From: Allomyces arbusculus | Taxonomy: Eukaryota > Blastocladiomycota > Blastocladiomycetes > Blastocladiales > Blastocladiaceae | Assembly (NCBI GenBank): GCA_027604705.1 | Contig: JADHYV010000015.1 | Span: forward strand, 310,001 to 374,000 | DNA length: 64,000 nt | Direction: 5' to 3' | Part shown: positions 12,685-63,782 of the stretch, in pieces | How the letters are laid out: each line of letters starts with the position of its first letter | Numbering within the stretch: the first letter of the stretch is position 1 | Program-made: the position numbers and the translations under genes | Notes under the pieces: model-generated | Database searches by the model: none | What the model saw: only the letters and a program-made list of their open reading frames with translations | What the model was told of the DNA's origin: nothing

Positions 12685-14249
12685 ATGATCACCAGCATTC
12701 GCCCTCGACTCGCTGCAACGGTGGCGACGGGGGCCGCAACGGCGGCTGCTTCGCGAGCTGCTGGGTGCGTGGCCGCGACCACCGCGGTGGCCACGCGCTC
12801 CACCATCGTTCGCTATGATCAGCTCCAGCTTCAGCACCAACAGCCCGCAGGCCTGCTCACGCCGGCGCGCAACATGCTGTCCGCCGTGACACGGCGCGCA
12901 TACTCGACGTCGTCAGGCGCTAGCACCGCGTCAGCACGCCGTCGCAAGCATCACTACTCGCTCCGCGGCAAAACCGTGTTCATGTCTGTTACTCCAGCTC
13001 CAAAAATCGATATTTGCGATCAATGACATCAACGACTGATCAGAATGCTCCACGGCCTTCTAGTACCGGCGCGAGCTCTGGGATCGGCGCAAGGTGCGGC
13101 GCGCTTCCTGCCGTTCATTGGGTTGATTCGCTCATGGGCACGAATCTGATTTCAACTTTCATCGTTGTTGGCAATTCGCATCAATACGTCTCTTTAGTTG
13201 TGCCCGGTATATTTTCGCACATACGATTCCGATCACGTCCGGGCACCCGCCAATGCTCATTATCAATTATCCGCGATCCAGGTTCTTTGCCGACGAGGGT
13301 GCGAACCTCGTCCTGACGGCGCGCCGTGTTGAGCGCTTGGCCAACCTCAAGAACGAGCCCGCGGCCGAATACCCCGACGTCAAGGTGCACGTGGCCGCGC
13401 TCGACGTGGTTGACCGCGATGCAGTGTTCCGCACTGTTGCCGACTTACCCGACCAGTTTAAGAACCTTGAGGTCCTGGTGAACAATGCTGGTACTGTTGT
13501 CAAATTGGCGACGTGCTGGTGGGTGGACAAGTTGCTAACACGCATTCCGCGATTGATCTAGGCCTCAGTTTGGGCCTGGAACCCATGATCGAGACGACGC
13601 CCGAGGATGCCAACACGATGCTGGACACCAACGTGCGGTACGGGCACTGCAGCTCTTCCACCCCCACCTCCACCATGCCGCGACTAATCCCACCCCCACC
13701 TGTTGACCTCCAGCGGCGTCTTCAACGTGACCCAAGCGATCGTCCCCGGCATGATCACCCGCGGTGCCGGGCACGTCATTACGATCGGCTCCGTCGCGGG
13801 CCGGCAGCCCTACGCGAACGGTGCCATGTACTGCGCGTCGAAGCACGCGGTCGAGGCCATGTCGCACGCGCTCACGCAGGAACTCGTCAAGACGCCCGTA
13901 CGCGTGACCATGGTCGCGCCCGGCATGGTCGAGACCGAGTTTTCCGTGGTGCGGTTCCATGGCGACGAAAGCAAGGCAAAGGCCGTGTACGACGGTCTCG
14001 ACCCACTCACGCCCGACGATATTGCCGACTTGGTCGTATTTGCAGCGACGCGGCCCAAGCATGTGCAGCGTATGTTGTGGAGGTCATGGTTGGTGGATTG
14101 GTTCCGGGTCCGCGCGGAGGACTGACGCGCAGCAATGGCGACGACGCGTTTGAAATTGTGTAGTGAACGACATGCTCGTGTTCCCGACGGCGCAGGCGTC
14201 CGTGTTCCATGTGCATCGCGACGCGGCGCCCGCTGCGGCCGAGAAATAG
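12685..14249 (+). CDS. Mitochondrial short-chain dehydrogenase/reductase (classical SDR)
   Basis: NAD(P)-dependent oxidoreductase, 351 aa, six exons: 12685-12983, 13064-13093, 13282-13490, 13562-13637, 13714-14069, 14164-14249. The first ~95 residues are Ala/Arg/Ser-rich with an RRAYSTSS segment typical of a mitochondrial presequence. The Rossmann core shows TGASSGIG (formed by the first splice), NNAG, the catalytic Ser in TIGSVAG and the YCASK active-site Tyr/Lys. It ends in a YdfG-like FPTAQAS segment on the last exon. Exon 2 is only 30 nt and the following intron is 188 bp. Closest in feel to YdfG/TMA29-type 3-hydroxy acid dehydrogenases; the substrate is not determined. Confidence 0.92.
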
Positions 14250-26427: not shown

Positions 26428-28134
26428 TCACGCCCCTGTCCAAAACGGCCCCCATGACGTTTCGTTTTGGTACCGGGCATACATATTCGCAAGCCACGTG
26501 CCGAGATTGGCGTACTTGGGCTCGAGCACTTCCGGCGAACTGCCGCGCTTGTTGAGACAGAACCCGTCGGGCGAGTCCTCGCCAAACTGCCAGTCGACAC
26601 CCTCCGCGTCCCAGTCCATCATCATGTGCTCAAACACGAGCATCCGGCTCGGCTGACTGTACTTGTCAACCTCGAGCCCGCCGTTGAACCAGAGCGGCCG
26701 CCGGTCGCGGTCCGTATGCAACAACCCGCCGCACACCATCACCCCTTGCGTGCGGCGCCGCCGCCGTGTCCAGAACGAGGTCTTGGTGGACTCACGGGTG
26801 GACAGGAACCCAATCGACCCGCCGTACCCGGGCATGAACGCGACTGGCTCGCCCGCGAGCTCGAACCCGATCCAAAAAGTCTCCTTGTCGCCGTGCACTT
26901 TCCGGTAGACGATCGATTCGCGCAATGGCGGTGCATTGAGCGCACAGGTCGCTAGCATGCCGAGCGTGCCCGCCGTCGTCGCCTTGTTTACGACCACCAC
27001 GCCCGATTCCATTTCGTGCTGCGAGACGCCGCGCCAGAACCGCGACGCCCGTACGCGCGCCGACGGGTTGGGCACAAACGACTTGAGCCACGTCAATCCG
27101 GGCGCGTAGGCGTCTGGGAACAGCGTGCGGTCGTGGAAGAAGAGCGTGCCTGTTGCCAAGTACCCCGGGTCGTCAAAGAGCACTTCGGGCGGCTGCATAA
27201 AGTAAACGTCCGAGTCGACAAGAATCGTTTGCTCGTACGGCGCGAGCAGCAGCGCAAATGGCTTCATCGCCCACCCGGTCGGATTCGCCACGTCCCAGTC
27301 GACGTGTGCGGTCATGTCCAAGGTCTTGACATTCGGCAACGACTCGAGCACTTGGCGGTAATGCGGCGGCAAGTCGTCGTCGCCGCCGTACATGATGGTC
27401 ACGGGCAGCGATGACCCGACCTTGCGCAGCCCGAGAATCGAAATGTAGGCGTAGTGCGCATGCTGCCGGCCGCACGTATAGACGAGGCCGCGCGCCTTGC
27501 GCGGGAAGGACCGGTGCAGCGTGCGCACCGACGTCTTGAGCCACGGGTAGAGCCGCGCCTCGAGCGAATGGAGCAGCTCGTCAATGGGCACGAGCGGGGC
27601 CGCGTCTTTGTCCGCCGCCAGCCGAAGTCTTGCCGCTGCGCTTGCGCGCAGGCGGTAGAGATCGCGATGCAGCCGCACGTAATGCGCAAACGCTGGCATC
27701 GTGTCGATGGGTGTCGGCGGCGTCTGCAGCTGTGCGAGCGTGTGCCGCGCGAGCATTGCTGTGATGGCCGACCGCACCGCATTTGCTGCCGCCGTCGGAT
27801 CGCTCCACGGCTTGGACGATGCATCGGCACTCGAATCCGCGGCAATCGCATCGAGCAGCGCGACGAGGCTCGCGTCGATATCGTTGGAAGTCGTGGCGAC
27901 TGGGTCGTAATCGGATCCCATGGCAGAAATTCCGCGTTGCGCGCTGACGAGCGATGCCGGCGAGCCTTTGGCGAGCAGGTCGACCGGTACGCGCGCTGTC
28001 GAAGTGGGAAGATGGTCGTACGGGTCGAGCGGACCCGTTTCGGCCGGTTCCCGCGTTAAATGGTACAGGGCGAGAACGAAAAGCACAATCATGACACATA
28101 GCCATAGCAATCGTCGGGGCTGTCGAGTCAACAT
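26428..28134 (-). CDS. MNN1-type alpha-1,3-mannosyltransferase (GT71)
   Basis: Predicted Golgi type II membrane glycosyltransferase acting on mannoproteins with GDP-mannose. Single exon, 568 aa. It has a short basic cytoplasmic N-terminus, a signal-anchor helix at about 9-27 (LLWLCVMIVLFVLALY), a stem region to about 190, then the catalytic domain. Key features are RGLVYTCGRQHA, LPVTIMYGGDDDLP, the DxD-type metal/nucleotide site in ILVDSDVYFMQPP (about 285-297), SGVVVVNKA, and HGDKETFWIGFELAG. This order matches fungal MNN1/MNN2-like GT71 proteins. A run of Arg (about 452-456) sits in a variable loop. It diverges from the channel gene across a 989-bp spacer. Confidence 0.9.
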   Translation of the reverse strand: MLTRQPRRLLWLCVMIVLFVLALYHLTREPAETGPLDPYDHLPTSTARVPVDLLAKGSPASLVSAQRGISAMGSDYDPVATTSNDIDASLVALLDAIAADSSADASSKPWSDPTAAANAVRSAITAMLARHTLAQLQTPPTPIDTMPAFAHYVRLHRDLYRLRASAAARLRLAADKDAAPLVPIDELLHSLEARLYPWLKTSVRTLHRSFPRKARGLVYTCGRQHAHYAYISILGLRKVGSSLPVTIMYGGDDDLPPHYRQVLESLPNVKTLDMTAHVDWDVANPTGWAMKPFALLLAPYEQTILVDSDVYFMQPPEVLFDDPGYLATGTLFFHDRTLFPDAYAPGLTWLKSFVPNPSARVRASRFWRGVSQHEMESGVVVVNKATTAGTLGMLATCALNAPPLRESIVYRKVHGDKETFWIGFELAGEPVAFMPGYGGSIGFLSTRESTKTSFWTRRRRRTQGVMVCGGLLHTDRDRRPLWFNGGLEVDKYSQPSRMLVFEHMMMDWDAEGVDWQFGEDSPDGFCLNKRGSSPEVLEPKYANLGTWLANMYARYQNETSWGPFWTGA

Positions 28135-29123
28135 CTTGACGGGGCCAGCGTGTCGTCGAGCAATAGGACGAGATCGTAGAGCAGGGAATACAATCGGTAG
28201 GCGAGCGCTTGACTCGCTAGCGTGCAGCTTCTAGCGACCGGGCAGCACGTCTTATACGTTCTCGAGCCGTCTAGGAATGTTCTCGTCGGGGGTTCCGGCG
28301 AGCTGAATGCGCACGAGTCGATCGAGATAGGCGAGCGTGGATGCTCGGTCGCACGCCGCCGGGCCCAAAATGGATTGATTTCACGGCAGCCGGCAGAGAA
28401 GTTGTCGGCCGCAAGGTGCTTGAAGGCCAAGAAATGGCGCGGGAGCTTGGGAGAAGTGTTGCGTCAAGTGATAGCGCGGCGCGATTGGCCAAGACGGCCA
28501 AGAGGCCCGGCACGATGATGGAAATGGTCGGAAATGAATGAAAGCAAATGAAAACAGACGGAATACCGGTGCAGCCAAGGCGGCCAAGTCACAAGTGATA
28601 AATTGCCGGTCACCCGCGTGTGACGCAAACGGGCAAGCAAGCCAGGTTCGAAGTTCGAACCGCCGACTTTGCATTTGCGCATTTTTGCAACAGGGCGCCC
28701 CGGCATTCAAAGCGTGTGTTCCCTCTTGCCAACTGCCGCCGATCTGCAGCAGCGACCCAACGCACGACTGACGCTTCGACTCGCCTTGCAACTGCCGGCA
28801 TTCGATTGATCCGACCGTCTTTCTTTCGTCCCGGACGATCTTGTCCGCCGCTCCGCCTCCGGTCCGCGCACCTGCTCCAACCTCACCGCGTCAAGCAATC
28901 GCTTCGCTTCGGTGTCCCGTGGCTGCGCGATCCAAGCAACCGTGGCCAAGTCTCGTGCTCGCGCTGCTCCCGCAGGCACCGCGAACGCAAGTCCACGGTC
29001 GAGGCTCGAGAGCCGCAACTTTCATGACCCGGCCTGTCCTTTGCCTGCACCATCTCGGCGCAGTTGTCACCATCGACTTGGCCCGCTTGTGCAATCTGCT
29101 GGTCCGACCAATCCACGCCGAGT
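28135..29123. promoter_or_regulatory. Divergent promoter region, mannosyltransferase / CNG channel
   Basis: A 989-bp region between the start codons of two divergent genes. Includes a perfect short inverted repeat GGTTCGAAGTTCGAACC at about 28647-28663, a possible dyad binding site. No gene supported. Confidence 0.4.
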
Positions 29124-32033: not shown

Positions 32034-33887
32034 TTATTGCTTGGCCGACGTGCTGCTACCGGCCTTGTACTTGTAGAAGTAGGCCATGACGAGCAGGCAC
32101 ACGTTGGCCGCGGCCGAGATACCCGTGTAGAGGAAGTACTTCTTGGGCAGGTTCTTGCCGGTCCAGTTCTCGACGTTGGCCTCCGAGTTGAGCGAGGCTT
32201 CGATGGCGACGACGTAGAAGTTGCCGAGCGAGACCATGAGCAGCCAGAACGACGTCGAGAAGGCGCGCATCGCCTTGCCGACCTGCGTGTACGCGAATTC
32301 GGAACCCGTGGGCGAGAACAACGATTCGCCGAGCGAGAGAATAAACCACTGCGGCAGCTGCCAGGCGCCATGAACACACCTGCCCCTGCAGGTTTCGGGG
32401 ATCGTGAGCCCGGATTTCTTGTCGAGCGTGCCCCCGTAGCCGTCGTAGACCTTAGATTGAAGCAATCCGGAGATCAAAAACCCGCAAGTAACCAAGATGG
32501 ACCCGAGAACCATCCGCCGAAGCGGCGTGACGGCGAGACCGCGGCGCTCGAGCCACGGGTACAAGAACGTCGAGAGCAGGTAGACGAGCAGCACGACCAT
32601 GATCGGGTTGACAATCGCGATCCAGACCTCGGGGGAGAGATGCAGGTCGCCGAAGTACGTGTCCATGCGGTCGTATTGGTCCGACCATTCCGTCGATTGC
32701 TGGTCGTAGACCATCCAGACGAACGAGAACGGGAAGATCATGAGCAGCATGCGCATGAACTCGCCCGTCTCCTCAGCAAACTGCTCGCCGTAAGGGCCAG
32801 CACCAAATTGCCAGAAAGTCTTTTTGGCACGGTCCTCCTTGGTGGCACCAATCCAGCCAACGACGGCAGCGCCAATCACGGCAACCATGTGGAACGGCAC
32901 AAACTCGCCGACCGGCGGCACAACACGGTAGTAGCGCTCGCCGTAGATGAAGAGCGCCGTGACAATCGCGAAAACAACCGTCGGGAGCATATAACCGGCA
33001 AAGTAGCACACGGGCGCGGCCTCGTCGCCGGAACCGATCGCGTCGCCAAAGCAGCCAAACGCATCCTTGAGCGCGGGCGTCGCGAAACCGGTCAAGACGG
33101 CACCGGCGTTGATGGCAATGTAAAAGTACGAGAAGAAACGACGCAGACCGTCGGCCTGGATCTTGAGGAACTGGTCAGCGCCGTGCGGGCCGACGCAGGG
33201 CTTGATACCACCGGTGCCAATGCCAATCAAGTAGAGACCGAGCAGAACCGACCAGTTGGTGCGCAGCGCCGGGATGGCCGTGATCGTGAGGACAATGTTG
33301 CCGACGAGGTAGGTGAGCGACAGGTAGACAATCGTCTTGTACTTGCCGAGGTACGAGTCGGAAATGGCGGCACCGATGAGCGGGAAGAAGTAGGTCGCCA
33401 TTTGCCATGCGTGCACCATAGACTTGGCCGACGTCTCCTCATTGCCGATGAAGATGAGGTAACGGTTCAAGAAGGCCTTGAGGCCGTAGTACGTGAAACG
33501 CTCGCCAAACTCGTTGGGCAGAATGTAGTAAATGGCACGCGGGAAGGCGTTGGGGTTCTTGGCAATGCGCGCGTCGAGACTGTTGGTGGTGGTGGAGTGG
33601 GCGCCCAAAATGGTCAGCTTTTCAGCTCGATGAGCAGGGGCATCGCTCAACCGTAATGAAAAAACGTACTCAGCGTTAATGCGACGCTCCTTCTCGAGCA
33701 GCGCAATCTGCTTCTCCGAAAGACCCGCGGTGTTGTACTCGTGCTACGTGCGCGGACAGGACAGCATTGTGTAAGTCAACGAGCGGTTGCAGGGCGCCGC
33801 GGCGAGCAGAAACACGAGACATACAGCGAGGGCATCGTCGGGCGCGTTCTCGAGCGTCACGCTCGAGTCAATCTTTTCGACGCCCAT
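32034..33887 (-). CDS. PTR2: Proton-coupled oligopeptide transporter (PTR2/POT family)
   Basis: Imports di- and tripeptides with protons across the plasma membrane. Three exons: 33887-33825, 33743-33670, 33579-32034 (81- and 90-bp introns), giving 560 aa. The cytosolic N-terminus is charged. The EFGERFTYYG segment in helix 1 is the ExxERFxYYG proton-coupling motif. GIGTGGIKPCVGPHGADQF and the FFSYFYIAINAGA signature follow, then a large loop with QQSTEWSDQ, and ESLFSPTGSEFAYTQ. Twelve hydrophobic helices are visible. A TATA-like box lies about 200 bp upstream. A similar-sized antisense ORF across the gene is a codon-bias mirror. Confidence 0.95.
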
Positions 33888-42393: not shown

Positions 42394-45300
42394 TCAACCC
42401 GGGGCGAATAGTGTCAGTCCGTCCATGGCTGTTGCCGACACCGTCGGATCGGGCGTGGCAGCAACGTCCATCTCCGGCGCTGGCGTCGGAGTCGGCGTCG
42501 GCGTCTTCCCTGCCGACGGCTCCGCTGACCCGGACTTGGCACGCGATTTCTTTGGGTACCGGTTGCGCTTCTTGACGACGGTCGCGCGCATGGTCGCTGG
42601 CCGCGTCTTGCCGTGCAGTTTGTAGCTGGGAGGGAATCACAATCTGTCAGTCTCCGCCGCGGCGCTCACATGCAAAAGAAATACGTACTAGAGCGCGCAC
42701 GCATTACACCAAGGGTCGCCGTCCTTGGACCGTCGCCACAACGACGTCGTATTGGTCCCGCAATTCGCACACTCGGGTGGTGGTGCCGGTTCAGCGGGCG
42801 CGCGGACGGTCGCCGACTGGCACAGCGTGAGCGGTCGTGGTCGCTTGTTGTTCTTGACGCTAATTCGCAAGAACAAAATCCGGTGAGCTGGACAAGGCGA
42901 GCGCACGGTCAAAACACGGTGGTGAGCGTCACGTACTAGAGCCCGCACGCATTACACAACACCTCCTCATTCTCTCCGCGTCGCCACAGCGGTGTCTTGG
43001 TTGTCCCGCAATGCGCGCACTTGTACTCGGGCATCGCATCATCTTCCTCATCATCTGCCGCCGACGATCCCGCATCCGTTGTCGACACCGATCGCGACGC
43101 CAGCGGCGGCATCGGGGCCAACAGCGGCAACGACGGTGGGGCGGGCTGCGCCTGCCCCGCATCCGCCGCCGCCAGATCCGTCTTCCGCCGCTTTCGCGCG
43201 GCCTTGACCGGTTTCGCGCCGTCAACGTCCATCTTTTCAGGCCCACCACCGGCGACGACCGACTTGGTCCGTGCACGCCGCCTGCGCGGCGCCGCCGCGC
43301 TGCTATTGCCACCTCCATCAGCCGGATCGAACCCGATCGCGACCGCCGGTTCCGGGACCCCCAGCCCCGCCCCCACGGAATCCCCCTCGCCCCCACCACC
43401 CGCGAGCGCCGCATCCACCAGGAAGTCCTCGATATCGAGCATCGCCATGAGCGCGAGCGGGGTATCCCCTCTCCCCGCCGCGGCCGTTCCGTCCGCGAGC
43501 GGACACAGCGCGTCCTGCGGCAAGGGTGCGTCGCCGAGACACGGCGGGAGGTGGAACGGTGCCGGTCCACCGACGTGCGAAATGGCCGATTCGAGCGCGG
43601 TCGCCGGGGGTGGCGGGAGGAACGAGACGGGTTGGATCGCGCCGCCTGCGAGCGGGTCGCAAAAGCCGAACGGGTCGGCCAGGAGCGCAGCGAGATCGCT
43701 GGTAGAGGGCGGGTCGGCGTCGGCCATGGTCGCGTCGGTGCCGAGGAGCGACGGAGGGGGGTGCGGCGTACTGGCGGCGGTTTCGGGAGCCGAGCACTCG
43801 GCACCCGGCGGGCCGGTGTCCATGGGACCGGGTGGTGTGCGCAGATGGAGGAGAGCCGCGTGGGATGCGGTCCCAACGGTGTCACTGGAGAACGGCTCGA
43901 GTACGGCCAGTGACGCGGGCGACAGCCGCAGTTCCGGCGCGAATGTGTGGTGCGGCGACGATAGAGAGATTGGCGGTGGTGCTGTGGTCGTGGGCGCGTG
44001 AGGTAAAGAGACGAGTTGCTGGAACGGGTCACGCGAACCGGGGTCGGTGAGTGGCCATCCGGGTCCGCTCACCGGCGGCGGCGGTCCTGTGGCGGCAGGG
44101 TGGTGCGCGTCGATCAGAACCGAGTCGTTCTTGCCGTGCAGCGCGTGGAAGTCGTAGTGCGGCGGGGCAGTCGGATACTCGTGCGCGAGTCCTGGCGCGG
44201 ACTGGTGCGGATGCGCGCGCACATGGAGGTTCGCGTGCGCGGGATGTTGAGAGAACGGCCCACCGTGACCACCATCTGGCGTCCCTGCGGCGCTCGTCGA
44301 CGAAACGAACACCGTGCCGGCGGCTGGATGCGGCATCGGCGACTGCGGCTGTACGTTTGGCGGTACCGGAGCCGGCGCAGGCACTTGCTGCGCGACCATC
44401 TGTTGCGGAGGTTGCGGTTGTGTGGTCACCTGCGCACCGGCGGTCGACCCGGACGCAGCTACTGCCGCCGCAACAGCCGACGCGGCCGTGAACGGGTTCA
44501 CGTTCTGCAGCAACGCCGCAAGTAATTGCGATTGTGCCGCGGGGGAGAGCTGCGACAGTAACATGGTCGTAAACGTCGAGTTGGCTGCCTGCATGCCGAG
44601 CCAAAACGACGATTCGTCGACGCCCTGCGGGACCACGCCGCGGAGCGTGTCCGGGATCGCGGGTACGGGTTCGTTTGACGCTGGAGCAGGCGCCGCAGGC
44701 GCTGCCGGCACCGGCGGTGGCGGTTGTATGGGTGCGGCCGCGGATTGCACGGCAGACGGCGCAAACGGCACCGGTGCCGGGTGGACGGTACCACCCGCGT
44801 ACGCAGCAGCGTGCATTGTCGAGTGTTGCAGTGGATGGTGGTCAGGGTGGGGGTGTGGCGGGCCGGGACCTGGTCCGGCAGCCGGGTACGCGCTGTGCGC
44901 CCCGCTGGCCGTGCGATGCGGCGGGAAACCGGTGGAGAGGGTTGGTGGAACACCACTCTCGGTCCCCGCTGGTCTAGCGATCGGGTGCTGGCTGTTGGCG
45001 GTCGGATACTGGGCAGCAGCGGCACCAGGCGGATACGGCGGCGGCGCGGCATGGTCGGTCATCGAATCTGCGGCTGGCTGGCCTGCGGGAGGCCCTGGCG
45101 CGTGCATTGCAAACAGCGGCGCTGTCGGTGCGTGTGCCGACAGGTACAAGTGATGGTGGGCCGGCGCCGGGGGTGGGGGTGGCACGGCCGAATTCGGTGC
45201 TTGCGCAGTGGCCGGATGTGCGGTTGTGTTGGGCCCAGCACGACGCCAGGCGGCGCTGGCGGCCGGTCCAAGATGCGGCGGCAGGTGAGCGCTGTGGACG

Positions 45301-45452
45301 CCGAGCAGCAGCGACGCGAGGTCGGGCGAGGCGCGCGGAAACGGCGGGTCGGTTCGCGGCGGCGGCGGCGGTGGTGGGCGCTCGGGTGCGTGAGCACCAG
45401 GTCGTGGTCCCGGTCCGGGCCCGGGTGGTGCAAAAGGCCGGTGGTCGTGCAT
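42394..45452 (-). CDS. GATA-type transcription factor with two zinc fingers
   Basis: Nuclear DNA-binding protein of 972 aa. Three exons: 45452-42937, 42859-42689, 42625-42394. The first ~800 residues are low-complexity, rich in Pro, Ala, His and Gln, and probably include activation regions. A basic RRRRART segment and KAARKRRK may be nuclear localisation signals. Finger 1 is CAHC-X17-CNAC with TKTPLWRR; finger 2 is CANC-X17-CNAC with TTSLWRR. Each is followed by the usual basic tail ([17 protein letters not shown]). Both introns (77 and 63 bp) interrupt the same Tyr codon (TA/C) just after the last Cys pair of each finger. Finger 2 has Ala in place of the usual Gly in CNACGL. GATA factors in fungi regulate nitrogen use, iron and light responses; which applies is unknown. 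Confidence 0.93.
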
Positions 45453-47086
45453 GGCAGAGAGTTCTAGAACAAATTTGGAGGCAAGGGATGGTCAGGGATT
45501 GGTGCTCTCGGTTGAGAGCGACCAGTTGGCTGAGGAGCCCACGTACCGGCGTGATTGCGAGCAGATCAACGTTGAACGGTCACGGTCGTGTCGTAGCGCG
45601 TGCTGGCCAGATTGTCCACCGCGAGCGGGCCGTGTGCGGGCGAGCGCACGGCGGGGAGAAAGGAGCAGGTCGGCCGGCCGGTGCTTGTGCGATGAGATTG
45701 ATGGCTGATCACGACTTCTCCAAACCGTTTCTTGGCCGTGTTCGCGCACAAGCACGCGCCTCGAAGTGGGGCGATTCGAGCGCGTGGCAGTCCTTGTGCT
45801 GAAGCGGGCCGCGCGCGACTGCTCGCAGTCGAATCGAGGCCGGCCGAGGCCGCTTCGAGGGACGGAGTTGAGACGACTTGGTCGAATGGCGGGTCCGTCG
45901 GACCGCGTGCACGCCAATGCGGACGGCCGGAAGCAGCGCCAGGAACGCGCACGAGTGGGCGTACGGGATTACGGGGTGAGGATGGTGGTGGTCGCGGTGC
46001 AGCGAGCCCATGATTTTCGAATTTTGATTTGTGCACGATGGCCAGCCATCACCGCGGCATGGGCCAGATCTGATAAACGGCCAACAGGCCGGCTCCTGCC
46101 CAAAGGAACTCGCGGCAGGGACAGCTGCACGATGCACGTGCGCGACTAAGCCCACAGCGACGTCCCAAACCGCGCTTCAAATCTTCAATTTCAGCTCAAG
46201 CGAGTATCGAGTTCATGACCAGGCCCGACTGGCGACCTCGACGTATATCTTTGACGCCGTCGGCCTCTTTGATCTGTAGTTTTACAGGCAGGGCAAGCAC
46301 GACACGCTCAATCACGTTCAATCGTTCACTTTCGCCGGCCTTTGCCTGTTCCGTACTGCCGGCGCGCCAGAGACTGTAATCAAACTGGGATTTGCGACGA
46401 CGTTGGACATTATGGAACCCACGTCTCGACTCACCCCACACGGATCATTGTATTCTGGGTTGTTTTTCGTTGCGCTCTCTGCCGTGGGGGATGAGATTGA
46501 GCGCAGTGAGTGTTGGGGGCGCGTTTGTTTTGTTCCAGGGACGGCAGGGTGGTCAAGGGCATGTGGAATTATGGCCGTGACAGAACGCTGGCAGCGCTGA
46601 TGGCGTGCCAATTGAAGGACACAAGTATGTGTATACAACGCAACGGTGTGCTTCAGTTCCTCAACGAACAGCAGTCGGACATGGTTCGCTGTCGAACAGC
46701 GGCCTCGCAAGCGCTTCGCAGCGCTGTTCTCTCGGGGGAACATGTGCATCGTTTGGGAAAAAATGTTACCTTGAGCGGCCAAGGCATGGGACGGATGTGA
46801 TGAGGGCAAGGTCAAATGGCAGGGCTGCAACGCGGCACACGTGCGCCTGACCAACGACGCGATCAAGCAGCGACGCGTCCTCCCGACACTAACTTCATTT
46901 AGGTCGCCTTCGGCTCGCTCACCGTCGACACCGACCCCACAGTGCAACCACGACGCGAGCACCAAGCGCAACTGCTCGCACTCGACCGCTGCTGCCCGCT
47001 CCGAGCCGCTGCCATTCGCGACCTCGCGCGACCGCACCATCCCGACCCGCAACCAAATCCACCTGACCGAACCTGCACTCGACACC
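45453..47086. other. Spacer between GATA factor and UFD1
   Basis: Divergent promoter region of 1.6 kb. A long minus-strand open frame (46318-47142) has no recognisable domain and runs into the UFD1 start, so it is not adopted. Confidence 0.4.
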
Positions 47087-48562
47087 ATGGTTTGGCGATT
47101 TTCGTCATGACTGCAGCCCTTTTCGATGCTCAGCACCCTCAACTGACGCCCACGCGTCGCGGCATGCGCGCACTTCGACTAGTTTGGCGGCTTCATGGAA
47201 CACGGCGGCCAGTTTGGCTTTGGCCACCAGCGGCCTGGCTCGTTCAGCGAATACGTGTGTGTTACAACGCTTAGTTCCTGTTCCAAACGCGACTGACCAC
47301 GTCGCCGTCGCAGTATCGATGCTTTTCCAACGCGTTCATGCCCGGCAAGGAGCGCGAAAACGCCAACCACGGGTCCAAGAGTGCGTCACTCTCCTTGGGG
47401 ATCCCTGCCGCTCACCCCATTTCGCGCACTGACCGCCGTTCGTCCGTCACCCGCAATCTAGTCTTCATGCCGCCGTCCGCGCTCATGAAGCTGAGTACGT
47501 TTGTCTCGGCCAGCGACCAGCGCACGCGCCCCACGGATCCGCTCCTCACCCTCAATTACTCCTCTCAGCCGGCCTGCACATCGAGAACCCCTACTTCTTC
47601 CAGCTCACGAACGAGGCCACGGGCAAGTCGACGCACGGCGGTGTGCTCGAGTTTGTTGCCGAGGAGGGTCGCGTCTACGTGCCGCGATGGATGATGGCCT
47701 CGCTCGGCGCGTCTGAGGGCCAACTAATCAAGATTACCAACAAGATCCTGCCGCGCGGCACTTTTGTCAAGATTGAGCCGCAGTCGGTCGACTTTCTCGA
47801 GATTTCCGACCCAAAGGCCGTGTGCGTCTTCCCGTGCCCCACATCGACGCCGTGCTCGTTACTGACGGTGTTGGTACCTTGAAATAGCCTCGAGCGCGCG
47901 TTCCGCAACTACTCCACCCTGACGATTGGCGACATCATCTCGTTCGAGTACCTCGGCAAACAGCGCGACGTGAAACTGCTTGAAGTCAAGCCCGCCGACG
48001 CCGTCAATATCCTCGACACTGACCTCGAGGTGGATTTCGCGCCTCCCGTCGGCTACGTCGAGCCCACGCCCATGGCGCGCGGCGCCGCCGGGTCCGGATC
48101 CGCAGTCGGGAGCTTGGTACGCTCGCTCCATTTCTCGACGCGACGCGCATCGCTTTCACCTCCCAACTCACGTACCTCTTCGTCGCACCGCCGCTCAAAC
48201 AGAACAGTATCCGCGACGAAGTCATGCAGCACGTGCCCGTGGCGGCGAAGCAAGGGTGGGACGCGCTTGGCACCGGCCAAAAACTGAAGCCGTCGCATCG
48301 TGCCACTACCGCGAGCAACAGTCACGCCGGATCCTCGCCGTCACCGTCGTCGGCGAACGCGAGCAAATCGAGAACGGCAAGTACGCCCGACGTGGTGGGG
48401 CCCGCACCGTTGCGGGTCCCGCTCGGGCAGCTGTTTTTCGGGTTCGATGTTGCGGCGCCCGCAGCCCCGGGCGGTGGCGAGGACGGTGGGGCGGGGGACG
48501 ACGCGCCGGTCGTGTTCAAGGGCGAGGGCAACGTGCTCAAGACGAGGAAGGGTAAGCTTTGA
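47087..48562 (+). CDS. UFD1: Ubiquitin fusion degradation protein 1
   Basis: Substrate-recruiting cofactor that, with NPL4, directs the CDC48/p97 ATPase to ubiquitinated proteins (ER-associated degradation, chromatin extraction). Seven exons: 47087-47089, 47183-47254, 47314-47380, 47462-47494, 47569-47821, 47888-48116, 48203-48562, giving 338 aa. The first coding exon is only the ATG, joined to FGGFMEHGGQ, matching the MFxGF start of the family. The UT3 double-psi barrel shows FMPPSALMKL, THGGVLEFVAEEGRVYVPRWMM, FVKIEPQSVDFLEISDPKAV, FRNYSTLT and EVDFAPPVGY. The C-terminal region contains LFFGFD and a VVFKGEGNVL segment, comparable to the family's p97/NPL4-binding tail. Intron 4 interrupts the MKL/TGL region. 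Confidence 0.96.
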
Positions 48563-50166: not shown

Positions 50167-52340
50167 ATGCCAGGATCTGCATGCCGAGCAAGGCGCGGCA
50201 CGGCCAAAGCGCTGGCCGTAACGCTCATGGCCGCTCTCGCGGTCCTGCTCGTCACCATGTTGGCACCGGCACCTGTGCTCGGGTTGCCGCAAGTCGATGT
50301 CGATGTAGATCCCTCGCCCGAGGGCGGCGCCGGCGACTTTATCGACGACGTCATTGTACGCCTGCCGCGTCATGCCGAGTCCGCAATTGTAGCGAAAGTG
50401 TTATTGATGGACCTGGGGGTCGTTGCAACGCTTCTAGGACGAGCAGTTGATGATCAACCGTATTTGCTTTGCCATGAACGCGCGAAACTCGATTCCGGGC
50501 GGTCAGGACGCCTACGTCGAGCGTACGTTCAGGACAGATCCGGTTGTTGCACGAAGCGTCGCGTCGTAAGTGTTCGAGGTTAGCTCAAGTCCATTAATTT
50601 TCCCGTTCGCGCCGGTGTCTCTAGTTACGTACATTCCTCCATCGACGGGCACAGCGACGCTCGCTATCTACAATATTCTCGACCAAGGTCTGCTGGGCGG
50701 TAAGCTTCCGGTACGCCATGCACCGCCCCCCATTCGCTCCACGCTACCTGATGCTCATCACGGTCCACGCACACCGCCGCGCACCCACCAGCCACCCGAC
50801 GATTTCGGTTACCTGTGCACCGATGCTGGCGTTCAAGCCGGCATGTGCCCGGAGGTTGGTCGCGTCCTCTTCCGCAATGCGACGGCCGATGGCACCCGCC
50901 TGCCGCATGCGCCGCTGTTCACCAAAGTTCTCAAATTCAAGGAAGTCACGCTGCCGTACCGGGTACGGTACGATGTGACGGTCACGGGCCTCTACTGCAT
51001 GATTGGAATGCCACTCGGTGGGTTTGACGAGGATGCCGAGGTCATGGCGACGATCAAGTACGTGAATGCACACGGGCTGCTTCCAGCCGTGGACTACCCG
51101 AAACTTCCGGTACATTTTGTTGTTGTGCTCGGGGAAACGCGCAGCTGCCAGTGAAAAAACCTGACCAGGCCGTCACCACTGTCTAGTTTTACGGCGTGAC
51201 GTGCCTCGTCTACCTCGGCGTGTTCCTCATGTGGATGGCCAAGAGTGCACTGCACTGGAACGAGATTTTGCCCGTGCAAAAGTATATTTCGGGCGTGATT
51301 GGGTTCTTGGTCCTCGAAACGGCGACCAACTACTGGTATCTCTCCGACTGGTACGCTGCCCACGTCTATTTGAGCCATTCACATGACCTCATTCCATAAT
51401 TCACGTGTGGCCAACTGCTTCTAGGAATACGCACGGCGAGCAGTCGTGGGCATTGCTGTTCCTCTCGGCCATCATGAACTCGGCGCGCAACTCGGTGTCG
51501 CTCTTTATCCTGCTGATTGTCGCCATGGGCTACGGCGTGGTCAAGCCGTCGCTCGGCGACGACATGAAAAAATGCCAGTTGCTCGCGGCGGCGCACCTCG
51601 TCTTTGGCGCGCTCTACGCCGGATTCACGCTCAAGCAGTCGGACCACAAGGGATTCGGCATCCTGCTCGTCATTATCCCGCTCGCGATCACGCTGACGCT
51701 TTTCTACGTCGGCACCCTGTCGGCGCTCACGGCCACGACGCAGCATCTCGAGATGCGGCGGCAGCACTTCAAACTCGCCATGTACAAGAACCTGTGGAGG
51801 CTGCTCTTCTTTGCTGGGCTCAATCTGGTCGCCTTCTTTGTCGTGAACAGCGTGTGGTTCTCGAAGCGCGACGACGTGGTCTTTCTCGCGCGGTGGTGGC
51901 GGTGGCGGTGGCTGCTCGTGGACGGGTGGCTCAACCTGCTCTACACGGTGTGCATGCTCGCGATCTGCCTGCTGTGGCGGCCCACGTCCAATAATGCGCG
52001 CTATGGGCTCGAGGAACTCGTCTCGGACCCGCTCGAGGACGAGTTTGAGCTCGACGTGCCGGACTTGTTTGACCAACACGCTGAACGGTACCCAGGCGCC
52101 AATAAGCGCCGCGGCGACCCGCTTGCCGAGCAGACGGTCGTGTTTGCGCTCGATTCCGACACGGACGACTCGGACGACGACGTGACCGGGCCGATGCATG
52201 GTGGGGCCGCGGCGAATGGGTCCCCGACGCGCGTTGCGCTCGCGTCGGGGATGGGGCAGGCCGCGGCGCACCTGCGGTCGCGATCGCCCAGCCCGATTCG
52301 CGGCGGCGGTGGGAGGGTTGCACCGGATGGCAAGTACTGA
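50167..52340 (+). CDS. Lung seven-transmembrane / PTM1-type membrane protein
   Basis: Member of the GPR107/108-PTM1 family, Golgi and endosomal seven-helix proteins implicated in vesicle traffic. Six exons: 50167-50355, 50438-50522, 50625-50710, 50792-51109, 51187-51350, 51425-52340, giving 585 aa. The signal peptide is at about 1-38 (ALAVTLMAALAVLLVTML). A luminal beta-rich domain carries Cys pairs. The first membrane helix begins at KLPFYGVTCLVYLGVFLMW, after the family's YPKLPFYG junction, which the fourth splice creates. Helices 2-7 follow, with VVKPSLGDDMKK and the signature VDGWLNLLYTVCMLAICLLWRPTSNNARY. The cytoplasmic tail is acidic with DTDDSDDD. Yeast relatives are Ptm1 and YHL017W. 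Confidence 0.92.
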
Positions 52341-52850
52341 GGTGATGCCGAGCAGTGGAGTGCGACCAGCAGGCCGGCTCGAATTTTGGGCATGAGTGTT
52401 TTTGGATTGGACCGTGTGTGGATCAGGAGAGACGCCGACCGGCTCACGCGCCGTGGCCGCACCTCCGGCACATATGTACGCGAGCATATCGTCAACGAGC
52501 ATATCGTCATATTCATTTCTGGTCAGCATGTCGTCGCGGATTGTTCTCGGTTTCCACGTTGATGACGGAGGCACTGGTGGGTGTCGCCTTGACGTGGTGG
52601 GCGCCCTTTTGGCGACAGGTGTGACGGCTCGGCGCGCTTCGCTCCTTTTCCAGCTTTGTGCTGCCTGCACCGCGTCGTTTTCATCGTTGGCGTTAGCGGC
52701 CGCTACGCTTCCAGCCGGCCGTCTGTTTCCAAACAGCTCGCGCTCCTCTACTCGCCCGTACGGCAGCAGCAGCAGCTCGTGTAATCGCTCGAACTGCCCG
52801 CAACCGCGACCTGCTGCAACCCGCTGCACCCCAGCACCCGACCAACGACC
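52341..52850. promoter_or_regulatory. Intergenic promoter region of SGT2
   Basis: 510 bp with no coding support between co-directional genes; the SGT2 promoter and 5' UTR are expected here. Confidence 0.4.
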
Positions 52851-54002
52851 ATGGACGAAAAGACCAAGCGGCTCGCGTTTGCGGTTCTCGAGTTTTTGCA
52901 GGCGACGCACGCGTCCGACAAGGTGGCCGACGACGAAAAGGAGTCGCTTGACGTGGCCATGCAGTGCTTGCAGGATGTGTTCAAGGTCGACCTCGCCGAC
53001 GCCGAGCAGCAGGCGCTGTTCTCCATGAAGCCGGCGTCGCTCATGTCGGTCTTTGACGTCTACCTCAAGACCAAGGCTGCCAACGAGGCCAAGGCGCGCG
53101 CCATGCCCGCGGCTACGGCCGCTGCGGCGTCGGCAACACCGCGCAACGTGTCCGATGAGGACAAGAAGCGCGCCGAGGAGCTCAAGGCGCAGGGCAACAA
53201 GCTCGTCGCCGAGCGCAAGTTCCCGGAGGCCGTCGCCAAGTACACGGACGCGATTGCGCTGAACCCGAACAACGCCGTCTACTTTTCGAACCGCGCAGCG
53301 GCCTACTCGCAGGCCGGTCAGCACGACAAGGCCATTGACGATGCCAAGCAGGCGGCTGTCGTCGACCCGACGTTCAGCAAGGCCTACTCGCGTCTCGGGT
53401 TCGTTCATAGGCCGTGTGTTTGAACCCTGCATCTCTGATCGGTTTGACTTATCATGATCCACCACTCCTACAATAGCCACGCGTACTACGCGACCGGCCG
53501 GTTCCAGGAGGCGCACGACGCGTACGCCAAGGGTCTCGAGCTCGACCCGTCGAACAAGACGATGCGGCAGGCGATGCTGCAGGCCAAGGCCAAGCTGCCG
53601 GCCGTCACGGAGCCCGCCGACGACGAAGACGACGAGGACAGTCTCGACGCGACGCCACGTGCCGCGCCCGGTGCCCGGGGCATGCCTGATCTCGGCGCGC
53701 TCGGCGGCGCCGGCGGGCTCGCGGGCCTGCTCAACAACCCGAACCTTATGCAAATGGCTCAGCAAATGATGGCCAGTAACCCCGGGCTCGCGCGCATGGC
53801 GCAGCAGATGATGGGTGGGGCCGGTGGAGCCGGTGGTGCGGCCCCCGGCGGCGCGGGTGGCGCACCCAACATTGCCGAGTTGATGAATAACCCGGCGATG
53901 ATGGAGATGGCCGCGCAGGCCATGAGTAACCCGGACGTGATGAACAACCTCGCAGGGCTCATGGGGAACCGCGGCGGCGCTGGTGGCCCGGGCAGCAACT
54001 AG
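52851..54002 (+). CDS. SGT2: Small glutamine-rich TPR co-chaperone SGT2/SGTA
   Basis: Cytosolic co-chaperone that receives tail-anchored membrane proteins and hands them to GET4-GET5/GET3. Two exons: 52851-53398 and 53477-54002 (78-bp intron), giving 357 aa. The N-terminal homodimerisation helix bundle (about 1-75) begins KRLAFAVLEFL. Three TPRs follow (about 105-220): AEELKAQGNKLV, NPNNAVYFSNRAAAYS and LGHAYYATGRFQEA, the last restored by splicing. An acidic linker leads to a Gly/Met/Gln/Asn-rich C-terminal substrate-binding domain with repeated NNP-M and AQQMM motifs. Length and order match SGTA orthologs. Confidence 0.96.
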
Positions 54003-57855: not shown

Positions 57856-58629
57856 TCACGTCTTGCGACGAGTCAAGTGGTCGTAGAGCACGACCTGAAT
57901 GTACTCGCGCGACTGCACCTCGCGGCGCTCCGTGTTATCGCCGGCGTCGGCTTTCGGATCGACATTGACTACCTTGCGGTCACGCTTGTTCTTGAAAAGT
58001 AGGCCCGTCTCGTTGTCGGCAATCACTTGCCAGTTGGGCGTGTTGTTGCTCGTGCACAGCTGCGTCTCCCAGTTGAAAAACGACAGATCCGATGGTCTTG
58101 GGACCATGGTCTTGGTGCCCGCAAAGTAGGCGTCAAAAGCCTCGGACTTGAGCCGGTGCGCGTAGTCGATGTACCCGGAAATCTCTTGGCCGCGCGCGTT
58201 GCGGAGACGCAGGAAGATGATTGTCTGTTTGGGTGTCGTCGATCCGATCCATGGTCAGGTACTCGCTTTCGGTTCGCACCACGGGCCCAAACGGCAATGC
58301 ACCGTCATTTTCCCGTTCCGGTTGGCCTCCTCGCGGTCGGCGAGCGCCGTCAGGAACGGCGAGTGCGCGACATCTTTGCCGTGGCTCGCGAGCAGCTTGG
58401 CCTGCCACCGCTTGGCGAGCCGAAAGCTCTCGGCCGCCTTCTTGCGCGCATCAAACTCGTCGCGCTTGAGCGGCTCGCCGGACCCGCGGTACCCGAGTTC
58501 CACGAGCTGTCGGGCCAGGTCGCGGTCCTCGAGGTAGAAGAGGTCGACAGCCGAGATTTGCGAGTCGAGGTACTCTTCATAGGTCGCAAACTCGTTGATG
58601 ATGTTGTCGCCGGGCGTGCCGTCGGTCAT
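57856..58629 (-). CDS. CFAP299: Cilia- and flagella-associated protein 299
   Basis: 231 aa, two exons: 58629-58303 and 58224-57856 (78-bp intron). The whole protein follows the CFAP299 (C4orf22) family. It shows [33 protein letters not shown], a KRDEFDARK stretch, then after the splice [58 protein letters not shown] and a [12 protein letters not shown] end. Found in organisms with motile cilia or flagella and absent from fungi that lack zoospores, so it is a marker that this organism makes flagellated cells. It starts 702 bp from, and head to head with, the rhodopsin-guanylyl cyclase gene. Confidence 0.95.
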
Positions 58630-59331
58630 GGTGCAGGTTGGCGACGGCGGAGAGTGCTGATGCGGGCGGTCATGGGCCTGGCGAAGGCCTTGGCTATAGC
58701 GGAGTTTGAGGACGTTGTTGCTGCTTCCTGCAGCGAAAGCAGCGGTTGTCGATAGAGACGTGTTGCAGCGAGAGGCATTCGCTCTGCTCAACATTGGACA
58801 CATTGCGCTCAACACAGCCAGGTCCTCGGTTCAAGCCAGGTCCTCGGTTCAAATCCGGGAGACTTGGTGATAGTGATACTGACGAATCTTGATTCTGTCG
58901 CCGCCGACTTGTTTGCGTCGCAAAGCACACACCATCAGTCGATCCGATGCGCAAGAGATTCGACATTAGAGATAAGATGTTGTATTTACGAGCCCAAGCT
59001 CGGGGAACAGCCAGCATTCGATTCCTCTCAATTCGCGCCAACCGAGTTGGCTCCCACTTGGCGCAACCGGCCTGCAACAAATCAAGGCCGCAACGAACTG
59101 CAACCGCCTTGTGCCCTCACCCCGCGCAACCTTGTCGCCAACGGACCTCGTCGCCAACGAACCCCGCCAGCAGCACTCGGATCAACCGCGACGCGCATCC
59201 TTTCCTGTGCACGCGTGCCCGTCGAGCTCCCCTCAGTCCAATCGGCGCATTGCTCTCGCCGAGCGGCGCCCGTCAGCTTGCTCGTCGCTTCATCCATCCA
59301 ATCCGCTCCCTCCATTTGCGACCAGGCCGAC
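58630..59331. promoter_or_regulatory. Bidirectional promoter region, CFAP299 / rhodopsin-guanylyl cyclase
   Basis: 702 bp between the two ATGs. Contains a short tandem duplication of CCAGGTCCTCGGTTCAA at about 58820-58853. No coding support: the frame entering the cyclase from 58864 lacks homology before its Met at 59332. Shared cis-elements for zoospore-stage expression would be expected here. Confidence 0.5.
58820..58853. repeat. 17-bp tandem duplication
   Basis: CCAGGTCCTCGGTTCAA appears twice head to tail within the CFAP299/RhGC intergenic region. Confidence 0.75.
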
Positions 59332-61529
59332 ATGCGCGACAAGGACAACCAGATGCGCGGCGCCTGCACAGGCTGCAAGACGTGCTCCGAGTACTTGCCC
59401 GCCGCCAATGGCGCGCCGCAGTGCGACGACTGCCGCTGCGCCGTCACCAAGCACCCGATTGTCGATGCCAGGGTCTCGAATCGCAGCATGTCGCGGAAAG
59501 GGTCCGGGTCAGGCCTTTTGCCGTCGGCATCGCCCATCAAGTCGAGTACGGATTGACTCGAATTTGGTGGGTTCGATGGCAATTTCACGCGACTCACGAC
59601 CCACAAACGCGTCGCTTGTCACGATCAATAGGCTCGCGCTCGAAATCATCCTCGTCAGTCGATTCCGGCAAGAGCGCGGGCGGGAGCCCCACGACACCGA
59701 CCTCACTCGCGGCCTTCCAGGCGGGCCACACGTCGCTCGATGCCACGTGGTCGTGGAGCATGTTGTGGACCGTACCGGCACTCAAATACCTCACCGTGCA
59801 CGGCCTGCTCTGGAATGCGACAACAGCCGCGCTTTTGTGGTACACGGTAACCACGCACGACCGGCAGGCCTATAACCGCGGGTGGGCCGACGTCTGGTAC
59901 GGGTACGGTGCGTTTGGGCTCGCCATTGGTGTCGCCTTTTCCGGCATGGGTTTTCTCGGTGCGAAATCCACCGAAAAGAAGGCCATGGCTCTCGCCCTGT
60001 TTGGCGTCAACGCTATGACGCTTGCGACGTACGTGCTCGTCCTGCTGCGGCTCTCGCCAACGATCGAGGGCAGCCAGAGCAACGCCGTCGAACCGGCGCG
60101 GTATCTCGAGTGGCTCGCAACGGGGCCTGTTCTGATTCAGGTGATTGCCGATATCACGCAGTCGCCGCACAACCCGACCACCGTAATTGCCGTGAATTAC
60201 CTCGTCACGATTGCCGCATTCTTGGGGGCCGTCCTCCCGCCGTTCCCACTCGGCAACCTGTGCAGTGTCCTGTCGTGCGCCGGGATTGGCTACGTCGTGA
60301 CGCACCTCGTCATGTGCTTCACGCGTGCCATTGATGGCACCACCTTGTCGACCGTGGAAACGTCGGCCCTCAAGTGGCTGCGCGTCTCGACGCTCGTGTC
60401 CTGGACACTCGTGCCTGTTTCGGCGCTCGCGTTCCATGCCGAACTCGTCTCGTTTACCGCGGCCGAGGCGGCGCTGGCTGTGCTCGATATCGGCGCCAAG
60501 GTGTTTATGACACTCGTGCTCGTCAACTCGACTGTTGAGCACGCACAGAACCAAAAGGTGGACGCGATCACGGCGATTGCCGAGGAGCTCGAGACGCAAG
60601 TCAACAACTGTGATGCGATTCTTGAGAAGATGATGCCGGCTAGGTGCGGATATGCTGGACAGCTGCCGACATATAGCGAGAGAAAACAAATGTCTGACGA
60701 TTTGGGTATCTCCTCCCCGATAGCGTGCTCGAGCAAATCAAGAACGGCGAAGCGACCGAGGCGCAGGAATACGAGTCGGTGACCGTCTTCTTCTCGGATA
60801 TCACCAACTTCACGGTGATTTCGTCGCGCACGTCGACCAAGGACATGATGAAGACGCTCAACATGTTGTGGCTCGAGTACGACGCGATTGCGAAAAAGTG
60901 GGGGATCTACAAGGTGGAGACGATTGGCGAGTATGTTACCATTTCCTTTCTCGTATTTGATGACCTTAGCAGCTGATTCTCCCGACCCCCATAGCGCCTA
61001 TTTGGGTGTTGCTGGTGCCCCGGACCGCGTGCCCGACCACGCCGAGCGCGCCGTCAATTTCGCGCTAGATATTATCGACATGATCAAGTCGTTCAAGTCG
61101 GCGACGGGCGAGTCGATTAACATTCGGATTGGGCTGCACAGTGGGCCCGTCACGGCTGGCGTGCTTGGCGATCTGAACCCGCACTGGTGCCTTGTCGGTG
61201 ACACGGTCAACACGGCCTCTCGAATGTGCGTTTTGACCTTGATTCGATGCGTATCTTGGGGCACGGATCGCTCCGACTAACACGGTCGGTGGCTCACTCC
61301 CAGGGAGTCAACGTCCAAGGCCGGCCACATTCACATATCCGAGGACACGTACAAGAAGATCAAGGATCGGTTTGTCACGCAGCCGCTCGACGTCATGGAG
61401 GTCAAGGGCAAGGGCAAGATGCAGACGTACTGGTACGTTTTCGACGTCAAGCTGCGGACCGGTTGGAGGACGGGGCAACTGACGTGCGGTGGGTTGTATG
61501 TTTGCAGGGTCCTTGGGCGCAAGGCGTGA
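59332..61529 (+). CDS. Rhodopsin-guanylyl cyclase fusion (RhGC/CyclOp, BeGC1 type)
   Basis: Light-activated enzyme making cGMP from GTP, known from Blastocladiomycota zoospores. Six exons: 59332-59545, 59632-60643, 60724-60930, 60995-61225, 61304-61432, 61508-61529, giving 604 aa. The N-terminus is Cys-rich (Cys12, 15, 18, 31, 34, 36), with CDDCRCAVTKHPIV closely matching BeGC1 as recalled. A Ser-rich linker and an extra N-terminal helix precede a type I rhodopsin (about 115-385) with EPARYLEWLATGPVL, LGAVLPPFP and the retinal Schiff-base Lys361 in DIGAKVF. A signalling coiled coil (AITAIAEELETQVNN...ILEKMMP) leads to the class III cyclase domain. There, FSDITNF holds metal ligand Asp434, VETIGDAYLG holds Glu474 and Asp478, and HWCLVGDTVNTASRM holds Cys543. 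Glu474 and Cys543 are the guanine-selecting pair. The protein ends YWVLGRKA. All five introns (64-86 bp) are GT-AG. Confidence 0.97.
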
Positions 61530-61796: not shown

Positions 61797-62953
61797 TCAA
61801 TGGTCGTCGCGGGTCGCTCCAGCGCACGATTCGTCCATTTCGCCCTGTGTGTCGTACTGGCACCCGCAATAAATGCAGTACCGGTGCGTCGTGCGCAGGT
61901 ACTCGATCAGCGTCGCGAGCTGCGTGTCCAACTACAGGACGGGCAAGGGTCTTATCAGCAATCTCACAGATGGACGCGGTTTCGACTAAAAGAGCAGAAA
62001 TACGTACGCTTAACCCCTCGAATGTGATGGCTTCGGCTGTCCTTGGAATCGATCCGTCGTCAATAGTTGGATCGTTTGGGTCGGGTCGCACCGGCTCGAC
62101 GGGCCCGGGCTCCTCGTCGCCGTCCACAATGGTTTCGAGCGGAGCGACGACCGGCTCGGTATCGCCCGTGTCGGCGTCGGGATCCGAGAGTGGCAGCGAG
62201 ACGGGAGTTTCGGGCAACGGCTGCACACTGAGCGGCCACAGGTGCGAGTGCGTCTGCAGCTCCTACTCGGTGGAGAATCATCGTCAGTATTCTAAGAGTC
62301 GTTTGTTGGCGATCCAAGCGGGAGTACCTGTTTTGAGTCGAGCTCGTAACAAATCTTGCGGCATTTCTTGATATCCGACTCGAGCCTAGGGACAAAGTAA
62401 AAGATGGATCAAACTGGACGAGCAAAACAAGCAAGGCCACGAACGGCGCGTACATCTTCTCCTGGAACCGCGTCGATCGCCAATCGCGAAAACTGCCCTG
62501 TGCTTCCTGCAAGAGCTTGACGCGCTTAGCCTCCTGCTCGACAGCCAGGTCCTCTGCGGTCTTGACGCCAATCCCGGTCCTACCTGAGCATCCGGTCAGT
62601 TCCTGGCCGCGGCAATGCAATCAATTACGCGTAAAGTACACACCCGCATGGACTGAAACAGCGAGCGGTTCGGCCATGCCCGCCGCGTCCTTGCCGAGCC
62701 CCTTACCGTCCTTGAACCCCATCTTTTTCAGTAGTTGCATGCCCTTGTTGGACTCGTCGAGCCTGCGTTTGAGGCCCTGATCGCGCGATTCCTTGAGCTG
62801 TTCGCGCAGCGGCGCCTGTTTGGCCGCGGCCTCGCGCGCCTTGAGCTTGCGGCGCTCCGAGTAAGTTAATTGAGTGGTCTTGGCGGCTGGCAGGGCCGCG
62901 GGCTCGGCGAGGAACGCGGCCGACATGTAGTCGTCGTCAGAGTCGCTGGCCAT
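61797..62953 (-). CDS. GPATCH11: G-patch domain protein, GPATCH11/CCDC75 type
   Basis: 295 aa, five exons: 62953-62644, 62583-62454, 62385-62328, 62262-62008, 61931-61797. It starts MASDSDDDYMS, as family members do. A basic coiled coil (ERRKLKAREAAAKQ) leads to RDQGLKRRL and the G-patch NKGMQLLKKMGFKDGKGLGK (about 72-92), ending HAGGRTGIG across the first splice. An internal helical region (RDWRSTRFQEKM) and an acidic insert (residues about 170-250) follow. The C-terminal DUF4187 block is TQLATLIEYLRTTHRYCIYCGCQYD with paired Cys. G-patch proteins activate DEAH helicases; GPATCH11 is nuclear and linked to splicing and cilia. It converges with the cyclase gene, 267 bp apart. Confidence 0.92.
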
Positions 62954-63782
62954 GGTGCGGAAGCTGGTGGGCGGGACTGCGGTTGACAACGGGGTCTGTC
63001 GTGGCGCCTGGATCCAGGGGCGCGCAGCTTGCGAATTGCGGCGGGTCGCAGCCGTTTCTCGAGCACCTGATGCAGTAGATGCAGGAGTGTCCTGGTCGCT
63101 GCAGCGACGTCTGCCGCGGCGATGTGGTTGTCAACGTGCAAACGCGGGGAGACAGTGGAGCGCGAGGAGTGTCTCCCGAAGTGTGACCGCTGCCGATTGC
63201 CGCGCCACATGCCGCTTTCGCCTCTTTCGCCGTGCTTTCGCGTCTGGAGCCAACTTGGCGTGGCGCGTGAGCCGCTCCGCTCCACTTCACCGCGCGCGAC
63301 GCTGCTGGCGACCCAACCGCGCCGACCAACCGCGACGCCCAGCACGGCGAGCTGCTGCAGTCAACAGCAGCCAGCCTTTGCGACCACCAGTGTCCAGAAA
63401 CACCGGCGCACCGGCCGCCGCAGCCCCTGGCAACAAGGCGCAACTCACTGCAAGCGACACGGAGACTGCGACGTTGACCTGCACTCGTCGCTGCTCGGTC
63501 ACGTCCCCGCGACCCCCAAGTGATATTGGAGACATTCAGGGCAGTCGAATACCGATTCCGGCTTTGGATTGTGTACCCCTGTCGCTGTTGCCAGCTCAAG
63601 CTCAAGCCGTCACGCACCGACCTGCGCCACTTGCGCTCTCGATTCTCGATCTCGTTCTCGTTGCGCATTCGGTCGAGCTACCGTCGCCGTTTGCAGCTCG
63701 TTACCCGTTTGACGCGATCAGCCTGCTCTCTGTGCTGCCGTCACCATGCCGGTCCGTCCCTGCCGACGCTCGACGCGATCAG
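62954..63782. promoter_or_regulatory. Divergent promoter region at right edge
   Basis: 829 bp between the GPATCH11-type start codon and the start of the partial gene at the right edge. Open frames lack domains. Confidence 0.4.

Follow-up and report, generated by a model that had tools for sequence, protein, structure and literature searches.

A predicted rhodopsin-guanylyl cyclase with glycine and asparagine at the DC-pair positions

Gene structure and genomic neighbourhood

The stretch of DNA analyzed here (64,000 nucleotides, hereafter the window) contains on its forward strand a rhodopsin-guanylyl cyclase (RhGC, or CyclOp) gene at 59332-61529, in which six exons, in a splice model rebuilt from landmarks, join into a single open frame of 604 amino acids with a TGA stop. 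Exon 1 (59332..59545) carries the start codon and the conserved cytosolic N-terminal segment MRDKDNQMRG..., while exon 2 (59632..60643) encodes the remaining N-terminal extension, helix 0, the seven-helix rhodopsin (E231, G236, N260, D357, K361) and the coiled-coil linker. The guanylyl cyclase domain begins in exon 3 (60724..60930), with the metal ligand Asp434 and the guanine-selecting Glu474, and continues through exon 4 (60995..61225; cyclase core, with Arg554 and the guanine-selecting Cys543) and exon 5 (61304..61432; C-terminal portion of the cyclase), the final residues and the stop being supplied by exon 6 (61508..61529). The original prediction had spliced six exons by hand, and the same exons give 604 amino acids here, with GT..AG borders throughout and the named residues in place.

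All five introns (86, 80, 64, 78 and 75 nt) have GT..AG borders, and each contains a YTNAY branch-like pentamer (5/5). Read-through meets in-frame stops in intron 1 (59546..59631, GTACGG..AATAG; two stops), the predicted borders of which lie in the Ser-rich 3' end of exon 1, and in introns 3 (60931..60994, GTATGT..CATAG) and 4 (61226..61303, GTGCGT..CCCAG), and none in introns 2 (60644..60723, GTGCGG..GATAG, with CTGAC 26 nt from its end) and 5 (61433..61507, GTACGT..TGCAG). Retention of intron 2, at 80 nt, shifts the frame. Intron 5 has a length divisible by three and would leave the frame intact if retained, and its excision regains the C-terminal YWVLGRK, as in the sequence of the BeGC1 structure. 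Intron 3 interrupts the codon of the metal ligand Asp478, which straddles the exon 3/4 junction (60929, 60930 and 60995). The G+C content at codon positions 1/2/3 is 55/47/81%, the pattern of a constrained frame.

The RhGC gene lies head-to-head with a CFAP299 (DUF4464) gene on the reverse strand (57856..58629; exons 58629-58303 and 58224-57856, 231 aa, one GT..AG intron of 78 nt), the two start codons being 702 bp apart. Pfam DUF4464 is found in both CFAP299 exon frames, and the product matches a chain of PDB 8glv (1.2e-90). In Drosophila, CFAP299 is reported to be required for normal axonemes and sperm flagella (PMC10425847). This flagellar gene and the gene for the predicted light receptor of zoospores thus lie around one common upstream region, which suggests that the two may be co-expressed during zoospore formation. 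At 58816-58860, an 18-bp direct repeat leads into CTCGG-TTCAAAT-CCGGG, which by eye resembles a tRNA T-arm and is possibly a tRNA fragment; neither ARAGORN nor Rfam reports a tRNA there, or anything in the window.

Downstream of the RhGC gene lies a G-patch gene (62624-63130, reverse; PF01585, 1.2e-11), which is presumably GPATCH11-like. The Pfam scan of the window covered 30 proteins, including the RhGC, and also identified an intact-looking glycogen synthase frame of 722 aa (20855-23020, forward; PF05693, E 0). Further matches on the forward strand are a short-chain dehydrogenase (13688-14122), UFD1 (47433-48284), a GOST 7TM protein (51387-52337) and an SGTA-like TPR protein (52785-53999), and those on the reverse strand are SRAP (2895-3578), a protein kinase (5407-6126 and 6012-6455), a peptidase M24 (10582-11352), a mannosyltransferase (26431-28230), a POT transporter (32037-33743) and a GATA finger (42939-45491).

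Conserved residues and the rhodopsin-cyclase junction

Pfam finds both domains in the one model protein, Bac_rhodopsin (PF01036, 2.1e-16) at aa 159-373 and Guanylate_cyc (PF00211, 8.8e-57) at aa 421-600, which bears out the initial reading of a fusion between a type I rhodopsin and a class III guanylyl cyclase. A PDB search with the C-terminal 296 aa returned the cyclase structures of BeGC1 (6ao9, 6e-110) and CaRhGC (6sir, 2e-109), so strong a similarity that chance is no explanation. The cyclase domain is identical to that of BeGC1 at 166 of 184 positions and to that of CaRhGC at 162, while BeGC1 and CaRhGC share 171 of 184. For the rhodopsin part, the best PDB match is Rh-PDE (7cj3, 2e-14), with bacteriorhodopsins next; AlphaFold2, run on the exon-2 product alone, gave a mean pLDDT of 42.5.

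When 23 is subtracted from published RhGC residue numbers, the same residue is found at 20 of 23 sites (15/16, 4/4 and 1/3 in the three subsets), including E254, D380, K384, D457, E497, D501, C566 and R577. The three exceptions, C259 (Gly236), L265 (Val242) and S364 (Ala341), all lie in the rhodopsin part, and none of the 15 published residues examined in the cyclase domain differs. The Schiff-base K361 (codon AAG, 60498..60500, forward) and its carboxylate counterions E231 and D357 are present (published K384, E254 and D380; PMC7693036), as are the metal-binding pair D434 and D478 and the guanine pair E474 and C543 (published D457, D501, E497 and C566; PMC7384201). The lysine, both metal ligands and the Glu/Cys pair are each found where the original prediction had placed them, and both guanine selectivity and light activation are predicted from the sequence. 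RhGCs have been reported from Blastocladiella, Catenaria, Allomyces, sanchytrids and several chytrids, and the earlier remark that such proteins are confined to very few lineages fits their reported occurrence in Blastocladiomycota, sanchytrids and some chytrid orders (PMC9616733, PMC8371127).

Both the extra helix 0 and the long cytosolic N-terminus of the RhGC class are present. The N-terminal motif is in line with published primers, which encode DKDNNLRG near the start of CaRhGC (PMC5967339) and MKDKDNN at the start of BeCyclOp (PMC4569695). Helix 0, at about aa 124-146, corresponds to helix 0 of BeCyclOp (147-169; PMC4569695) minus 23, and its mean hydropathy of 0.74 is below that of the other seven helices. 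Compared with published 626-aa RhGCs, the N-terminal region is 23 residues shorter and the C-terminus has one extra residue, Ala604. Since the offset is constant from TM3 to the C-terminus, the 23 absent residues fall before TM3, and since helix 0 fits the offset too, they probably sit in the stretch at aa 46-107, 56% of which is Ser, Thr, Gly or Pro. In BeCyclOp, the N-terminal region is reported to govern dark activity (PMC4569695).

The acceptor of intron 2 was the single junction in doubt. With the AG at 60723, the Pro of the MMP motif stands 27 residues ahead of the metal Asp, equal to the spacing in five of five cyanobacterial class III cyclases, and 113 residues separate positions 361 and 474, the same as between published K384 and E497. 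A non-canonical GG acceptor at 60705 would add six residues (RYLLPD) to the linker, giving a 610-aa product; these codons continue the frame with no stop among them, and a good CTGAC precedes 60706. However, the site is not AG, the Pro-to-Asp spacing becomes 33 rather than the 27 of the cyanobacterial enzymes, and the distance from the Schiff-base Lys to the E497 equivalent becomes 119 rather than the 113 of the published numbering. This highly improbable variant was ruled out by the linker spacing and the published numbering, and the AG at 60723 is assigned as the acceptor because it gives the spacing of 27 and is the sole model that keeps the offset constant at 23. That the fusion depends on a hand-made splice model also leaves room for a chance juxtaposition, in which a rhodopsin fragment adjoins an unrelated cyclase, but this is scarcely conceivable, as exon 2 by itself spans the rhodopsin and runs on into a linker of cyclase type (EKMMPA), and across the junction the family sequence carries on without a gap.

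Searches of prokaryote genomes gave 14 pattern matches, five of which encode relatives, namely the cyanobacterial class III cyclases mentioned above. Their sensor domains are of PAS, response-regulator, GAF or periplasmic-binding type, and no rhodopsin domain was detected in any of the five at E 1e-5. Although these sensor domains differ, the linker spacing of all five is exactly that of RhGC, the metal Asp standing 27 residues after the Pro of an ILP motif. Viral contigs contained no match for the six exact peptides searched.

The altered DC pair

The DC pair, consisting of a Cys in TM3 and an Asp in TM4, is absent from the 604-aa protein. Gly236 (codon GGG, 60123..60125, forward) takes the place of the Cys (published C259; PMC8575461, PMC7693036), and Asn260 (codon AAT, 60195..60197, forward) takes the place of the Asp (D115 of bacteriorhodopsin), as placed by alignment to bacteriorhodopsin and Rh-PDE chains. 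GGG is at least two base changes from any Cys codon and AAT is one further change from GAT, so that a single sequencing error is insufficient as the cause. In the published RhGC numbering, the TM4 partner would be D283, a number that follows from the offset.

In ChR2 and CaRGC, the Cys/Asp pair is described as lying next to the retinal C13=C14 bond, and the pair is reported to be conserved in CaRGC (PMC8575461). The C259S substitution in CaRGC made M decay 5.5-fold slower, at 3.13 s as against 570 ms, with few other effects (PMC8575461), and in channelrhodopsin chimeras Ala at either DC position kept the channel open longer, for tens of seconds (PMC4366085). The DC pair is a kinetic feature, reported for CaRGC, and not a defining one, an RhGC being defined by the fusion of rhodopsin and cyclase.

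As a control set, 386 cyanobacterial genomes were searched, of which 17 had a rhodopsin match; among 20 listed loci, the 17 above the cut-off were used (one of them, L025, with an internal stop) and the three below it were dropped. In these rhodopsins, which are distant ion-pump-type relatives, the TM3 position is occupied by Thr (9) or Val (8) and never by Gly, and the TM4 position by Gln (4), Ala (4), Asn (3), Gly (3), Asp (2) or Ser (1). These counts indicate that an intact DC pair is not universal and that Asn in TM4 is not rare.

Because C259S slowed M decay in CaRhGC, one may guess that this naturally DC-less protein signals for longer, which can be tested; the variation at both positions in other microbial rhodopsins speaks against it. 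By that analogy, its M (signalling) state might decay much more slowly than in BeGC1 and CaRhGC, where decay takes 100-570 ms, making it an integrating, step-function-like sensor, an outcome that we consider unlikely; if it is true, the protein would be a ready-made slow optogenetic tool for cGMP. As a natural RhGC in which the cyclase is kept and both DC residues are gone, it makes the role of the pair testable by reciprocal single swaps. The RhGC family, its mechanism and its optogenetic use are already published, and the altered DC pair is what is new here; a limited literature search returned no description of an RhGC without the pair, which is not a claim of its absence from the literature.

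Proposed function and comparison with known systems

RhGCs serve fungal zoospores as light receptors and offer a means of switching cGMP by light, and few have been characterized. Members of the family are reported to respond to green light, to signal through the M state and to produce cGMP, which acts through a cGMP-gated channel on zoospore swimming (PMC4046227, PMC8575461, PMC9616733). The gene described here is very probably an RhGC orthologous to BeGC1/CyclOp of the blastocladiomycetes, predicted from its sequence to bind retinal on Lys361 and to form a light-activated dimeric cyclase making cGMP. In the proposed mechanism, all-trans retinal on Lys361, with Glu231 and Asp357 as counterions, would absorb light (green, by family), and its isomerization would reach the cyclase by way of helix 7, the coiled-coil linker and the cytosolic N-terminus, with the M state as the signalling state. 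The class III cyclase, by family a homodimer, would then convert GTP to cGMP, which would act on a cGMP-gated channel and steer the zoospore, as in Blastocladiella. We infer light activation, the homodimer, the cGMP product and the role in phototaxis by analogy with these relatives.

Orthology is no guarantee of a good enzyme, since the three RhGCs of Allomyces macrogynus, when expressed in oocytes in 2015, were very weak (AmCyclOp1), inactive (AmCyclOp2) or light-independent (AmCyclOp3) (PMC4569695). A tentative alternative, which we hold to be possible, is that the gene is a degraded or specialized AmCyclOp-like paralogue, active weakly or only as the partner of another RhGC subunit. The G+C content of the window (62.4%) is near that of A. 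macrogynus (61.6%) and far from that of Catenaria anguillulae (56%; PMC8371127), although G+C alone is a weak argument, and A. macrogynus is reported to have several RhGC copies with hints of heterodimers (PMC4569695). The altered DC pair points the same way, as does a cyclase that is more distant from BeGC1 and CaRhGC than those two are from each other. Against it, the published cyclase-domain residues checked are intact and the frame is unbroken, and no second RhGC copy or piece was found in the 64-kb window, where the other tblastn matches have E values of 0.7 or worse. Judged from G+C and family, the 604-aa protein may be one of AmCyclOp1-3. If it is an Allomyces copy, the altered DC pair becomes a candidate cause of the poor AmCyclOp activity.

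Compared with known systems, the predicted orthologue shares with BeGC1 (BeCyclOp, BeRhGC) of Blastocladiella emersonii the order of the domains, the N-terminal motif, helix 0, the length of the linker, and the catalytic and chromophore residues. The two differ at 18 of 184 positions, a comparison that covers the cyclase domain and agrees with the original statement that this copy departs from BeGC1, and the 604-aa protein is about 22-23 residues shorter before TM3 and has Gly236 at C259 of the published RhGC table. CaRhGC (CaCyclOp) of C. anguillulae is alike in architecture, with its numbering offset by 23, but has C259 where the 604-aa protein has Gly and is 23 residues longer N-terminal of TM3. 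AmCyclOp1-3 belong to the same family (PMC4569695), and the A. macrogynus genome agrees with the window in G+C. SrRh-PDE (PDB 7cj3), the closest solved rhodopsin domain, likewise has an extra N-terminal helix (PMC8815786), but carries a phosphodiesterase in place of the cyclase and retains Cys and Asp at both DC positions. The NeoR/RGC heterodimers of chytrids likewise combine rhodopsin with class III guanylyl cyclase (PMC12264004, PMC8815786). In NeoR, however, the D212 position is occupied by Glu and the T89 position by Asp, and a Glu/Asp/Glu triad at the Schiff base is described as E136, D140 and E262 (PMC8815786); this triad is absent from the 604-aa protein, which has Glu231, Thr235 and Asp357 at those positions, and with Asp357 and Thr235 at the D212 and T89 positions it is not a NeoR.
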